From Bacillota bacterium (GTDB taxonomy: Bacteria > Bacillota > Sulfobacillia > Sulfobacillales > Sulfobacillaceae): a stretch of 64,000 nucleotides of DNA. Under the pieces are notes generated by a model that was not told the origin of the DNA, did no database searches, and saw only the letters and a list, made by a program, of their open reading frames with translations. This document shows positions 21,067-64,000 of this stretch, one piece after another; the stretch's first letter is position 1, and each line of letters begins with the position of its first letter. The stretch spans positions 1-64,000 of the forward strand of contig JAKACZ010000018.1 of the NCBI GenBank assembly GCA_021820965.1. The letters run 5' to 3'. Made by a program: the position numbers and the translations under genes.

Positions 21067-21118
21067 CCCCCGCCTTTAGGCGTGGGGAGGAAAGCGGGCT
21101 TCCGCCGTTAGGCGGAAA
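21067..21118. repeat. End hairpins of the iscB element (iscB 3' side)
   Basis: Two hairpins follow the iscB stop: TTCCGCCGTTAGGCGGAA (21101-21118, overlapping the last codons) and CCCCGCCTTTAGGCGTGGGG (21067-21086). The second repeats the structure of the hairpin at 22698-22718 on the other side of the gene, so these mark the two ends of an IS200/IS605-like element of roughly 1.7 kb. Confidence 0.55.
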
Positions 21119-22394
21119 CAGGTTTTTTCTCATAATGCCACCCCTCATTGCGTTGAAGAATGCGACAGTGTTTATACGAAATCCCTTGGGCCACTCTTTG
21201 CCCATGGGAGGAAATGTCAAAGCGGCCATTGGCCCGCACCAACACGCGGCCGGTGTGGGTTCCGGCGTACTTCCCTTTCGGCACCACCGCCCGCACGAGG
21301 TCCCCGGTCTGAAACCCGAAGTGGACCTTCTGCCGTGACCGATGCCGGATCGGGAAGCCATAGGCATCGGTCCCACACAGTTGCCGGTTGCCGCGCCCCT
21401 TCGCGGTCCAGATCTGCACGGAGGCCGGCAGGCGGGTGAACCTATCCGGTGCACTTTCGCCCACGCAGAGGGCGTCGAAGTAGTGCTCCTTCGGGAATCC
21501 ATGGTCGAGCCGCTGCTTCTTGGTGCGTCCGCCGGATCCCCCTTCGACGGGCAGCCCCGTCGCTTTCAGCTGTTCATACAACCGCCACCGGGTGGCGTTC
21601 ATCATGGCGGCATCCTTGAGGGGCTTCCGGGCTTGGACTTGGATGTCCGGATGTCCGAATTCCGCCGCGGTCTCATTGTTCTTCGTGAGATTGCAGGGTT
21701 CGCACGCTAAGGTTAAGTTGCTGACCCGATCGGTCCCACCCCGGCTCTTTGGTGCGATGTGTTCCACCTGCAAGGGGACATCGGTGGCGCCGCAGTAAGC
21801 ACAGCGGTGCCCCCACTTCGCTAGCAGGTACTCCCGCACTTCGTAGCCCTGCAAGGTGCTTTGCTGGTATTCCACGCCCGAGATTTCTGCATTCTGTAGC
21901 TTTTGCGTATCGAACTTGACGTGTTCGACGCTGAGATCGGTAATCGGCGCGAATTTTCGGAGTTTCGCCAGGGCATGCAAGGTCTGATCAACCCGGGCTT
22001 CCAAGCTCGGCGGCAACCACCCGTCTTTGCGCTTGCGGTTCTGAAAGCGGGGTTTGCGATAGCGGGTCTTGCGATGCCGTCGCCCTCGACGGAGGGCGCG
22101 TCGGGCATCCAGCTTGGCTTTGATGCCCGCTTTGTGGACAATCTCCCCAAAGAAGAGGACCTTGGGGCCTTTGGCTCCCTCCAAGAGGATGGCCACTCCG
22201 GTCGTCTTGCTGCCTGGGTCAAACTTAACCCGAAGCGGCTGAAACGCGGATTCTGCCGCCGCCCGATCTTTCAAGCGGATGGTGAACGGAGCCATCTGAT
22301 GAATGACCGCTCGACCCCGTTCTAGCAACTGGCGGGCTCGTTTTTCGCTGCAGGGCATTAAGGGTTTCTTCTGTCGGTCCAACACAAAAACCAT
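21108..22394 (-). CDS. iscB: IscB RNA-guided nuclease
   Basis: A transposon-borne ancestor-type relative of Cas9, about 428 residues from ATG 22394 (preceded by GGAGG). An N-terminal PLMP domain (residues 1-45, motif KKPLMPCSEKRARQLLERGRA) is followed by RuvC-I with Asp59 in VKFDPGSKTTGVAI. An arginine-rich bridge helix (98-122) comes next, then RuvC-II with Glu157 in LSVEHVKF. The HNH domain (198-240) has zinc pairs CAYC and CEPC and His212 in VEHIAPKSRGG. RuvC-III carries His304 and Asp307 in KEHYFDALC. All nuclease residues are present, so it is predicted active. Residues past 330 form the target-motif-reading domain. The frame is open 65 codons further upstream, but that segment overlaps the omega-RNA. 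No intact tnpA adjoins it. Confidence 0.93.
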   Translation of the reverse strand: MVFVLDRQKKPLMPCSEKRARQLLERGRAVIHQMAPFTIRLKDRAAAESAFQPLRVKFDPGSKTTGVAILLEGAKGPKVLFFGEIVHKAGIKAKLDARRALRRGRRHRKTRYRKPRFQNRKRKDGWLPPSLEARVDQTLHALAKLRKFAPITDLSVEHVKFDTQKLQNAEISGVEYQQSTLQGYEVREYLLAKWGHRCAYCGATDVPLQVEHIAPKSRGGTDRVSNLTLACEPCNLTKNNETAAEFGHPDIQVQARKPLKDAAMMNATRWRLYEQLKATGLPVEGGSGGRTKKQRLDHGFPKEHYFDALCVGESAPDRFTRLPASVQIWTAKGRGNRQLCGTDAYGFPIRHRSRQKVHFGFQTGDLVRAVVPKGKYAGTHTGRVLVRANGRFDISSHGQRVAQGISYKHCRILQRNEGWHYEKKPVSA

Positions 22395-22735
22395 GAGACT
22401 TCCTCCCTCGCCATCCCCCGTAAGGGGGCTGGTAACGTCTTCGTGCAAAGATCTCTCCGCGCCAATGTTCCCCTGGGTTGCATCGTCCCTCCGCACGGCT
22501 CGCACTACCCCGAGCTGGCGTTTAACGGAGGACCAAAGTCCCGGGACTTCGTTTGAAGCCCGGGAGAGAGCCGGGGGCTGGAGAAGCACCCCCGGGTCTG
22601 CACCATGGGAACGGAGCCGCTCGCCTCCCGCAGCCTACTTGCGAAAGCTGCTGTCAGTTCCGGCGGCTAAGACTGGTCATAGTCGGGCTTTTACAAGCCC
22701 CCGGCTTTAGCCGTGGGGTCTATGACCCGTTTGAT
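22395..22735 (-). ncRNA. Omega-RNA region of the iscB element
   Basis: The roughly 340 non-coding bases directly upstream of iscB are packed with G+C-rich hairpins. Examples are CCCCCGGCT/AGCCGTGGGG at the outer end, CCCGGGCTT/AAGTCCCGGG near 22540-22565, and the CCCCCGGCTC/GAGCACCCCCGGG region near 22570-22600. Near the gene the minus strand reads CCCAGGGGAACATTGGCG then GGAGAGATCTTTGC, resembling the conserved 3' part of known IscB omega-RNAs (as I remember them). The guide would come from just outside the outer hairpin, beyond about 22720. Exact ends are not visible by eye. Confidence 0.7.
22698..22718. repeat. Outer end hairpin of the iscB element
   Basis: CCCCCGGCTTTAGCCGTGGGG folds into a stem with a TTTA loop at the distal end of the omega-RNA region. 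It is the counterpart of 21067-21086 and probably marks the element boundary. The flank beyond it would supply the guide. Confidence 0.55.
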
Positions 22736-24246: not shown

Positions 24247-24486
24247 ATGGTAGTGGTATATACGACGCCGACGTGCCCACACTGCAAGTCGGCCAAACGC
24301 TATCTCAAAGAGCGGCGTATTCCATTTCGCGAAGTGGACGTAAGCCGATCGGAGGAAGCGGGCAGAAGCCTAAAGCGCAAGTCGGGCCAGACCGGAGTGC
24401 CTGTGATTGATGTCAACGGGCAAATCATCGTCGGATTTAACCGGCCCAAGTTGGACCGAGCCTTGGGTATTCGCTCGCTTGATTAG
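24247..24486 (+). CDS. Glutaredoxin-like protein (CPHC)
   Basis: A 79-residue single thioredoxin-fold protein of NrdH/glutaredoxin type. The redox motif CPHC is at residues 10-13 in VVYTTPTCPHCKSAKRYL. The cis-proline lies in TGVPVIDVNG and the C-terminal VGFNRPKLDRAL completes the fold. It would reduce disulfides in the cytoplasm. A GGAGGGG ribosome site lies upstream. It stands in a small redox cluster with the CsoR-family repressor and, 400 bases on, the UGA-containing thioredoxin-fold protein. Its motif TPTCPHC is closely parallel to that protein's TPT-UGA-PYC. Confidence 0.9.
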   Translation: MVVVYTTPTCPHCKSAKRYLKERRIPFREVDVSRSEEAGRSLKRKSGQTGVPVIDVNGQIIVGFNRPKLDRALGIRSLD

Positions 24487-24487
24487 G

Positions 24488-24892
24488 CCAAACTATGATA
24501 GATTCATGCCATAAGGGCCTGGTAAGAGGGCCCGCCATCTTGCAGGTTCAGTACTGTTTGGCGCTGCACCAGCATGTTCGTCGTAGCTGGCGAAATGAAA
24601 GGCGGTTGGCCATCGTGTCAACACATATCCCTTACGAGGGCAGAGACAATGGATTCGGCGACACCATGGTCAAGGTGGTACTCAGGCCGACAACCAGAGA
24701 GCCGCTCTTAAGAGCGTAGAGATTCGTGTATCATGGGCCTAGCTCCATCGTCACCAGCGGCGCAAAGCGCGGACACAGCCCCTAGGCCGACGTGAGAACC
24801 CAAGGCGACTGCCGCGGCGAACATCGGCGCCAGTAATAGCGGGCACCGGGCGAGGCAGCAAAATTGTGATTGTCGATTTCGAGGAGGTTATC
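24488..24892. other. Intergenic stretch without a recognisable gene
   Basis: About 400 bases between the glutaredoxin and the UGA-containing gene. The longest open frames here have no ribosome site and no protein-like pattern. No hairpin with a T-run is obvious. A promoter for the following gene is expected but I cannot place one with confidence. Confidence 0.45.
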
Positions 24893-24893
24893 A

Positions 24894-25544
24894 ATGGCGA
24901 TTATTCAAGAAAACATCCGTGGCGAGGTTCAAGAGTTTTTAAAGGACATGCGGGATCCGGTGACGGTTGATTTCTATCCGCACCCTCAAAGTCCGGCTAG
25001 CGATCCGATGAAACAGTTGCTAAGCGAGCTGCAGGACATCGCGCCCCAGATCCGCGTGGTGCAGCACAACCAGGCCGCTACGCCAATTGCCCCGGAAAAC
25101 CCGGGCGACATTGAAGGCCCGGTAACGACATTCTCGACCAACGACGCGTTCACTGGCATCCGATATCTCGGATTTCCTGGAGGGCAGGAATTTAGCACGT
25201 TCCTTCAAGATTTGCTGGATCTGTCGCAAGCCAGCGACGTCTCGCTTAGCGCGGCGACACAAGAATGGCTGCAGTCCCTAAAAGAGCCGGTGCATCTGGA
25301 AGTCTTCGTCACCCCGACCTGACCATATTGCCCCCGGGCGGTTCGCCTGGCACACGAAATGGCACGAGTCAATCCAAAATACGTCGTAGCCGATATGGTA
25401 GATGCTGCGTCGTTTCCGTCGCTTTCAGACCGCTATGGCGTCTCTAGTGTTCCCGTGACCATCGTCAACGGAAACAGCCAGCAGGTCGGAGCAGTACCGG
25501 AATCTCAGCTAACATCGGTCATACGGCGGGAATTAGGCGTTTAG
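24894..25544 (+). CDS. Candidate selenoprotein: two-domain thioredoxin-fold oxidoreductase, Sec143
   Basis: From ATG 24894 (GAGGAGG site upstream) the frame runs 142 codons, meets one TGA at 25320-25322, then stays open in the same frame to TAG at 25542, giving 216 residues if the TGA is read. The second domain spells EVFVTPT-UGA-PYCPRAVRLAH, then VADMVDAASFPSLSDRYGV and SVPVTIVNG with its cis-proline. The TGA therefore replaces the first cysteine of a CPYC redox motif. The first thioredoxin fold (residues 1-110) has no CXXC. This resembles archaeal-type protein disulfide oxidoreductases or the AhpF N-terminal domain, where only the second fold is active. A SECIS-like hairpin follows the TGA, and a SelB-like C-terminus lies at the window end. 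The alternative is a nonsense mutation in a Cys codon, making two broken halves. Confidence 0.8.
25320..25352 (+). promoter_or_regulatory. Candidate bacterial SECIS element
   Basis: Eighteen bases after the TGA comes the three-base loop GTT, closed by CGGGCG (25335-25340) and CGCCTG (25344-25349) with one G-T pair. An outer TGC/GCA helix (25329-25331 with 25350-25352) adds three pairs around a CCC bulge. Bacterial SECIS elements sit within the coding region just after the UGA, with a small apical loop containing a G roughly 16-37 bases downstream; this one fits. It is by-eye folding only. Confidence 0.6.
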
Positions 25545-49624: not shown

Positions 49625-49824
49625 CGTTAGTGTATAATACCCCCGCCATGCCGCAACGTCCGACGTTTTGAACCTGCCTAGGCAGGTGGGCACCTCCCGT
49701 TGACTTTCGCAGTCCCCACTTACCATCGGGGCAGGACGGCCGCCAACTGGGGTCAGGTTCCCTATGTTTTGGTGTTGGCTCAAAACATATCGGTCTGGTC
49801 CCGAACACGGCAGGGAGAACCTGT
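49602..49824 (-). ncRNA. ssrS: 6S RNA
   Basis: A transcription unit of about 220 bases with its own promoter and terminator but no coding frame. The 5' part (CTGCCGTGTTCGGGACCAG, then CCGATAT) and 3' part (GACGTTGCGGCATGGCGGGG) pair into a long closing stem, and both resemble the ends of E. coli 6S RNA. A short inner hairpin (ACCTGCCTAGGCAGGT) lies on the 3' side of the expected central bubble. 6S RNA mimics an open promoter and traps housekeeping RNA polymerase. In Bacillus the 6S-1 gene lies between aspS and rarA; the same is true here, which is the strongest argument. Mature ends are not known. Confidence 0.75.
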
Positions 49825-63239: not shown

Positions 63240-63897
63240 CTCCCCTAAGAGCCAGAGCCATGATTGAGATGTCGTCGCTCGGCCGGTCTCGTTCCAGATC
63301 GAGCGCATGGTCCATCAAGTCGCCCACAAACTGTTGAATGTCTTTCGCTTGAAGGGTGGCCAGCCGGCTTTCCCAGCGCTCCCACTCAATAGTCGCGCCA
63401 TAGCGGCGGCCGGCATGCATGAGCCCATCCGAGTACGTTAAAAGAACGCTATCGGCGTCGGCGGGAAGCTCGGCCATGGCGGGGCGTGTCTTGCGATAGG
63501 TACCAATCACCTCGGCATGGCCTTCCAGGTAGAAGACGCGGCCTTCCTGCCTCACCATCACCGGGCAGGGTGCATTACGGGCAATGACCAGCGTATGGGT
63601 GTGCAGATCCACCGACAAAAGCGCCAAGGTGGCGGTGACCCGCCCTTCCCGTGCCGTGTAGAGCATATCCTGCACCGCCCGCGCCACCGCCCCGTCGCGC
63701 GACCCATCGGCAATCAACTGCACCGCCCTCATCGCCACCATACGGCTAATCCGGCGCGCGCCCGGGCCCGATCCCTGGCCGTCGGCCAGAATCAGGGTGA
63801 GACCCCCCAGCGGCCGCTCGACCAGTTCGATGCTATCGCCGCTTTGACCCAGGCCGCCTTTGGGCATTTTGCTCCATGCCACTTCCACCCGGCGCAT
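63193..63897 (-). CDS. SpoIIE/RsbU-type PP2C serine phosphatase
   Basis: A 234-residue phosphatase domain without a sensor or membrane part. Metal-binding motifs are LTLILADGQGSGPGARRIS near residue 35, LLTYSDGLMHAG near 150 and DRPSDDISIMALAL near 210. Such domains dephosphorylate anti-sigma-factor antagonists; a stand-alone form may act in general stress or sporulation control. Its ATG shares one base with the stop of the SelB-like gene upstream, so the two are co-translated. Confidence 0.85.
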   Translation of the reverse strand: MRRVEVAWSKMPKGGLGQSGDSIELVERPLGGLTLILADGQGSGPGARRISRMVAMRAVQLIADGSRDGAVARAVQDMLYTAREGRVTATLALLSVDLHTHTLVIARNAPCPVMVRQEGRVFYLEGHAEVIGTYRKTRPAMAELPADADSVLLTYSDGLMHAGRRYGATIEWERWESRLATLQAKDIQQFVGDLMDHALDLERDRPSDDISIMALALRGDDESALRNLHASIPY

Positions 63898-64000
63898 CAG
63901 CTCACCAACTCCCGGCTGTCTCCGACCCGCCTGGTCACCCGTTCCCGGTCCAAAAGCTCCAAAAACAAAACCGTCATCCTCCGGTTGATGCCCAACGCTT
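63897..64000 (-). CDS. selB: SelB C-terminus (selenocysteine elongation factor), partial
   Basis: The window ends inside a minus-strand gene whose last 33 codons read ALGINRRMTVLFLELLDRERV, then TRRVGDSRELVS. This matches, from memory, the very conserved end of SelB's last winged-helix domain (of the form [28 protein letters not shown]). That domain binds the SECIS hairpin of selenoprotein mRNAs. The frame is open to the window edge. The piece is short, so the call rests on one motif; it gains weight from the UGA-containing redox gene at 25 kb. The 5' portion lies outside the window. Confidence 0.65.
   Translation of the reverse strand, partial: ALGINRRMTVLFLELLDRERVTRRVGDSRELVS

Follow-up and report, generated by a model that had tools for sequence, protein, structure and literature searches.

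The occurrence of an in-frame UGA exactly where the homologues of a thioredoxin-fold protein carry a catalytic Cys raises the question of whether this codon is read as selenocysteine (Sec), and whether the hairpin directly downstream is the bacterial SECIS that signals its recoding. The gene, coding for a protein disulfide oxidoreductase (PDO), resides in the window, by which we mean the whole stretch of 64,000 nucleotides of DNA that was analyzed, and its features are collected with those of its neighbors in Table 1. Standard ORF calling (table 11) terminated the frame at residue 142, and by such a mechanical call the catalytic domain of the selenoprotein is lost; with the TGA read as U, the product has 216 residues and carries U143 in a TUPYC motif. 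On the sequence comparisons described below, it is highly probable that the UGA is read as Sec and that the hairpin at 25334-25350 is a bacterial SECIS signaling this recoding.

Table 1. Positions of the selenoprotein gene, its predicted SECIS and neighboring features in the window.
Feature	Position	Strand	Details and basis
Selenoprotein gene, PDO (PDO_seleno_TRX, TIGR02187)	24894..25544	+	ATG 24894; TAG stop 25542-25544
Shine-Dalgarno-like GAGGAGG	24881..24887	+	6 nt upstream of ATG 24894; from sequence
UGA, codon 143, predicted Sec within T-U-P-Y-C-P	25320..25322	+	aligns with catalytic Cys of homologues
Predicted SECIS, stem 5′ arm CCGGGC	25334..25339	+	comparison, covariation, codon constraint
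Predicted SECIS, apical loop GGUUC (N-GU-N-N; conserved G 25341, U 25342)	25340..25344	+	alignment and published loop pattern
Predicted SECIS, stem 3′ arm GCCTGG	25345..25350	+	comparison, covariation, codon constraint
Small glutaredoxin, TCPHC, upstream of selenoprotein gene	24247..24486	+	
IscB RNA-guided endonuclease gene	21108-22589	-	433.1 bits, cut-off 175
HEARO/omega RNA of IscB	22447-22726	-	85.8 bits
6S RNA (Rfam RF00013)	49636-49819	-	75 bits
selB 3′ end (Sec-specific elongation factor)	63897..64000	-	profile match; remainder past window end, same contig

The whole protein scored 187.4 bits with TIGR02187, a narrow pass over the curated cut-off of 185, with the UxxC in its C-terminal domain, and the same locus scored 179.4, under the cut-off, in the genome scan; the AhpF models TIGR03143 and TIGR03140 matched the same stretch of the protein as TIGR02187. 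The closest homologues in the named collection were those of Bacillota-labelled MAGs and Sulfobacillus harzensis, and S. thermotolerans, whose genome carries a UGA orthologue (L066), was also matched. Plasmid records with a match numbered 36, all below 60% identity, and an ahpF annotation was carried by 8 of 10 among the matches listed. The canonical archaeal PDO is a two-site protein with a CxxC in both thioredoxin domains. Like the PDO 1a8l, which we take to be from Pyrococcus furiosus, the window protein belongs to a family whose profile matches over nearly the full length (E 9.3e-50, positions 2-210 of 214), and its UPYC is aligned with the C-terminal CPYC of 1a8l, U143 falling on the first Cys. 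Unlike in 1a8l, Sec would replace this first Cys, and the N-terminal CQYC is found only in 1a8l, the profile alignment giving no counterpart in the window protein, which reads HPQSPAS there; a CxxC in both thioredoxin domains, the test for two-site membership, was not found in it.

In the conserved element of the hairpin, positions 25334-25339 pair with 25345-25350, six pairs in all, and the five-base loop between the arms starts 17 nt past the UGA; in the window sequence alone, if the G-C pair closes, a 7-bp stem with a 3-nt loop is formed. The initial annotation had drawn CGGGCG (25335-25340) against CGCCTG (25344-25349) with one G-T pair and a GTT loop (25341-25343) whose G lies 18 nt past the UGA, and all of these bases and the loop distance were confirmed. 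The 31-nt fold gave -11.2 kcal/mol (z -0.86, 38 of 200 shuffles equal or better) and the 46-nt fold -16.8 kcal/mol (z -1.58, 17 of 200), and the energy of the window gene against synonymous-codon nulls gave z -0.56. With such z values against shuffles, folding energy was dropped as proof of a SECIS; equal stability of shuffled sequence, raised earlier as an argument against the element, was thus found in part, and it is a weak test for a hairpin so short. Loose bacterial SECIS geometry, taken without the energy cut, fitted after 1181 of the 1809 TGA trinucleotides on both window strands, so geometric likeness alone is uninformative and was likewise abandoned as proof. The six-pair stem in the exact register followed 4 of the 1809 window TGAs, the site itself counted among them. 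At the gathering threshold, Rfam gave no SECIS family match over the whole window, the matches being HEARO and 6S RNA only.

The hairpin was then compared between UGA and Cys homologues at loci with the motif [U/C]P[Y/H]CP, with duplicates removed; "the order" hereafter refers to Sulfobacillales, represented by 42 genomes. L057-L070 were assigned to the order by hand from their labels and high identity, and L061 among them is labelled Actinomycetes yet resembles G032. Of 47 distinct genes with UGA from the order, 45 had all six pairs, the exceptions (L032 and L038) having four of six; none of its five Cys genes had all six, four of them keeping five pairs and one four. Outside the order, the full stem was found in 6 of 12 UGA genes and 0 of 73 Cys genes, and at least one pair was therefore missing in all 78 Cys homologues. 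When codons were redrawn randomly within each gene, the complete stem arose in 0.5% of draws for the window gene, and in 0.5-37% over the 47 genes. The fold is thus conserved in relatives that keep the UGA, the point on which its lack had been proposed to speak against a SECIS, and unlike folding energy, the comparative evidence is decisive for the hairpin. Some UGA forms of this PDO from other lineages lie off this register, namely L077 and L118 (both Anaerolineae MAGs), L190, L192 and L193, where other hairpins are possible by eye, such as GGCUGC-AGUU-GCAGCC in L190.

Among the alternatives, the hairpin might simply reflect constraint on the protein and its codons, with CCN-CGG-GCN-GTN-CGC-CTG self-complementary by accident; the P-R/Q-A-V-R-L residues are indeed common in Cys homologues too, and GC-rich synonymous nulls reach similar energies for single genes. 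This reading is opposed by the absence of the six-pair stem from all 78 Cys genes and by the pattern of synonymous codons, which was determined in 46 of the order's 47 UGA genes as excess synonymous identity over codon usage in 154 usable columns. Codons +9, +5, +8 and +4, whose third bases lie within the stem, ranked first to fourth of the 154 in excess synonymous conservation: codon +9 was CTG in 44 of the 46 genes, codon +5 was CGG in 33 and CAG in 13, codon +8 was CGC in 43, and codon +4 was CCC in 44. The stem codons are thus frozen far past codon usage, whereas the loop codons +6 and +7 vary freely, at background level (ranks 83 and 45 of 154). This pattern of codon constraint is the stem's footprint. 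As further paralogues with different residues also rebuild the stem (see below), a by-product of coding constraint is very improbable.

To the alignment of main orthologues was added a selection of the UGA paralogues listed for the order, including three more from the window's genome, with 43 paralogue loci scanned; the 96 rows were reduced to 88 UGA genes and, after removal of 10 from outside the order, to 78. Among the 88, all six pairs were found in 74, and 83 had GT as the second and third loop bases. The alignment of the 78 from the order had 95.7% of its cells paired, compared with 16.9-45.3% in slid registers, and two-sided changes were found at five of the six pairs, in 47 cells. The cells paired, the two-sided cells and the covariation score were each reached by 0 of 500 shuffles, and the less extreme measures were reached somewhat more often, the five pairs with two-sided change in 46 of 500 and the 11 further pair types in 4 of 500. 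RNAalifold on the 78 rows returned only four of the six pairs, the inner ones, at -4.13 kcal/mol, and on a quick flanking-protein tree whose branch support was not inspected, at least 3+1+0+2+2+1 = 9 switches of Watson-Crick type were counted. The same rows were informative on the stem as first drawn. Its innermost G-C pair is present in 39 of the 78 UGA genes and without two-sided changes, so that the bases stand but this pair does not belong to the conserved stem. The proposed outer helix of TGC (25329-25331) with GCA (25350-25352) around a CCC bulge can pair in the window, but its outermost pair holds in 40 of the 78 genes and fails in 38, and no two-sided change was found in it; being not conserved, the helix and bulge were dropped from the element.

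Three further UGA thioredoxin-fold genes of the window's genome carry the hairpin with other bases, with UAFC on C4, UPRC on C96 and UPYC on C65; those of C4 and C96 are in the exact register, and that of C65 is displaced by a single base and has a loop of four bases. Paralogues with other residues in the stem region (QMVHL, HVVNM, EAVRL and HAVRM) rebuild the stem from other base pairs, which argues against accidental self-complementarity. Six scanned paralogue loci had no row in the alignment, two of them with six pairs (one a copy of an existing row) and four with five, and L287 and L296 had poor stems in this register. A covariance model built from the alignment found the site in the window at 54 bits, the site being a training row, together with two weak matches of 10.8 and 6.6 bits. 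Among 20 chosen loci, the held-out UGA rows L182, L186, L194, L195 and L185 scored 36.5-51.2 bits and L077, L118 and L190 15.7-23 bits, and the Cys rows L041, L043, L027, L172 and L171 scored 8.7-31 bits, so that the model separates UGA from Cys genes incompletely. The active sites of the paralogues include UPYC, UPHC, UPRC, UPKC, UAFC, UTFC, UTRC, UMFC, UFRC, UGHC and others. Sec thioredoxin-fold paralogues probably arose in Sulfobacillales by a lineage-specific radiation, with SECIS elements nearly all in one register, an N-GU-N-N pentaloop and the stem rebuilt with other base pairs. The near-uniform register across many paralogues appears to be an unusual feature. If the radiation is true, it would offer a natural mutational scan of SelB requirements in this group, and some of the subfamilies may be undescribed. 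The 78 aligned SECIS with their compensatory changes make a good natural test of what matters in a bacterial SECIS, pointing to stem pairing and the loop GU over stem sequence.

Alternatively, the UGA could be a true stop, or the gene a truncated pseudogene, with the protein ending at residue 142, as would follow from TGA being a stop in table 11 and from the standard ORF list. This is opposed by the 73 codons beyond the UGA, over which the frame is open and conserved, and by the position of the UGA exactly on the catalytic Cys. A search of 41 genomes found homologues in 37, and in 31 of these the best match holds one internal TGA; a UGA gene at E <1e-70 was kept in 37 of the 42 genomes of the order, with neither TAA nor TAG in place of the UGA among the main orthologues listed. 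Termination or decay at this codon is therefore no more credible than an accidental hairpin.

The Sec-decoding trait, comprising selA, selB, selC (tRNA-Sec UCA) and selD, is complete in the window's genome. The selB product (626 aa, 363.8 bits) is encoded at contig positions 63897-65777, ~38 kb from the selenoprotein gene, and selA was found at 532 bits. Two tRNA-Sec(UCA) genes, with G73, are present in the genome, and a tRNA scan of the window found none. The selD gene (L209, G000 C56:94356-95279) contains one TGA close to its start and, after it, a 7-bp hairpin with a GGA loop, and is itself a selenoprotein gene. Across the order, selB was found in 36 of the 37 genomes with the UGA gene, the remaining one (G044) having selA, and tRNA-Sec(UCA) in 29 of 42, several of the others being drafts with selB. 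In G010 and G019, which are of one genus, selB and tRNA-Sec are absent and both carry a Cys copy; selA gave no match in G010 and one marginal match in G019. Three incomplete genomes depart from this pattern: G003 (59% complete) has a Cys copy despite selA and selB, in G048 (63% complete) a UGA paralogue was seen and selA and selB were not found, and G049 (71% complete) has selB and no match to the PDO family.

Several observations concern the tRNAs themselves. The first tRNA-Sec (L002) is identical to that of three genomes of the same genus. The second tRNA-Sec(UCA) is very different (L001/L019, 8482-10670 on G000 contig C73) and adjoins a radical SAM/SPASM peptide-maturase-like gene, with PqqD-like, small ferredoxin-like, recombinase-like and reverse-transcriptase-like ORFs around it by eye; no counterpart was seen among the 42 genomes, and the C73 piece could be mobile or contaminating (genome contamination 5.58%). 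A selC-like long tRNA-Cys(GCA), with U73 by eye, was also found (L003, G000 C31:7625-7717), and such genes occur in 14 of the 42 genomes at E <= 1e-8 (L244-L250, L252 and L254-L259 being listed beside L003). A G before CCA marks a tRNA of the Ser/Sec type, and the G-CCA end was present in all 30 UCA tRNA genes among the matches listed. The selC-like tRNA-Cys(GCA) of the order resembles the selC-like tRNA-Cys described in the consulted part of PMC7609411. A further alternative is that a selC-like or suppressor tRNA inserts cysteine or some other amino acid at the UGA; the occurrence of these genes and the selC-like tRNA-Cys with a UCA anticodon published elsewhere (same part of PMC7609411) could be cited in its favor. 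It is the least probable alternative of all, given the GCA anticodon of the selC-like tRNA-Cys here, the Ser/Sec-type ends of the UCA tRNAs and the presence of selA and selD.

We thus return to Sec insertion at a SECIS as the preferred reading of the UGA in the redox motif; the initial annotation had proposed it, and it is upheld by the agreement with published SECIS features, the compensatory changes, the stem-codon constraint and the Sec machinery in the genome. The analysis itself established a conserved covarying hairpin, codon constraint, downstream coding, a genome that contains selA, selB, tRNA-Sec and selD, and Cys where the machinery is missing. SelB binding and its loop contact, Sec insertion and the chemistry of the product are predicted from established bacterial Sec biology, to which the standard Sec route belongs. 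By this route, SelD, SelA and tRNA-Sec would make Sec-tRNA, and SelB, bound to the SECIS, would carry it to the ribosome. With the ribosome at the UGA, SelB-GTP with Sec-tRNA-Sec(UCA) would bind the stem-loop, probably contacting it mainly via the loop GU, and Sec would be delivered instead of termination, giving the full-length PDO with a UPYC site in its C-terminal thioredoxin domain. The product would be a PDO-type oxidoreductase with a single selenol-thiol site and presumably thiol-disulfide chemistry. The standard bacterial Sec route is also described in the consulted sections of PMC13188914.

Upstream of the selenoprotein gene lies the small glutaredoxin, whose TCPHC form is shared by the window's genome and another of the same genus (L023). 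Its Cys is UGA in L031, L038, L048, L051, L067, L069, L070 and L155 (T/S-U-PHC, with TUTYC in L067), and the glutaredoxin represents a second Sec/Cys switch adjoining the selenoprotein gene.

The element was finally compared with known systems. The published bSECIS model, given again in a 2026 review (PMC13188914), places the element directly after the UGA in the coding region, with a 4-16 bp upper stem, a 3-9 nt apical loop, a G at loop position 1 or 2 (usually N1-G-[G/U]-N-N2), 16-37 nt between UGA and loop, and an MFE <= -7.5 kcal/mol; the same features are described in the consulted part of PMC1088965. The window hairpin agrees with the model at each point, having an in-frame UGA, the 5-nt loop GGUUC, a 6-bp stem, a distance of 17 nt and -11.2 kcal/mol. 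Unlike in the model, many paralogues of one order share nearly a single register here, with a pentaloop at UGA+17. For the protein, one of the predicted selenoprotein families in the consulted part of PMC13188914 is TIGR02187 with UxxC, under the name 'Homolog of AhpF N-terminal domain (Grx-like domain protein)', and the consulted part of PMC1794560 records members of it from Carboxydothermus and Symbiobacterium; in the consulted portions of the Sulfobacillus selenocysteine literature, formate dehydrogenase and PrxU are mentioned and the TIGR02187 family is not. The gene described here is like the known AhpF-N-terminal-homolog family in the NCBIfam model that it matches and in having UxxC at the same place, and unlike the known TIGR02187 members in belonging to a new lineage, Sulfobacillales, where it occurs in 37 of 42 genomes, and in passing the cut-off only narrowly (187.4 vs 185). 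The selenoprotein family and the SECIS mechanism are already published, and what is new is the Sulfobacillales membership: an acidophile order with selenium in several thioredoxin-fold proteins, which may have a bearing on metal and oxidative stress.
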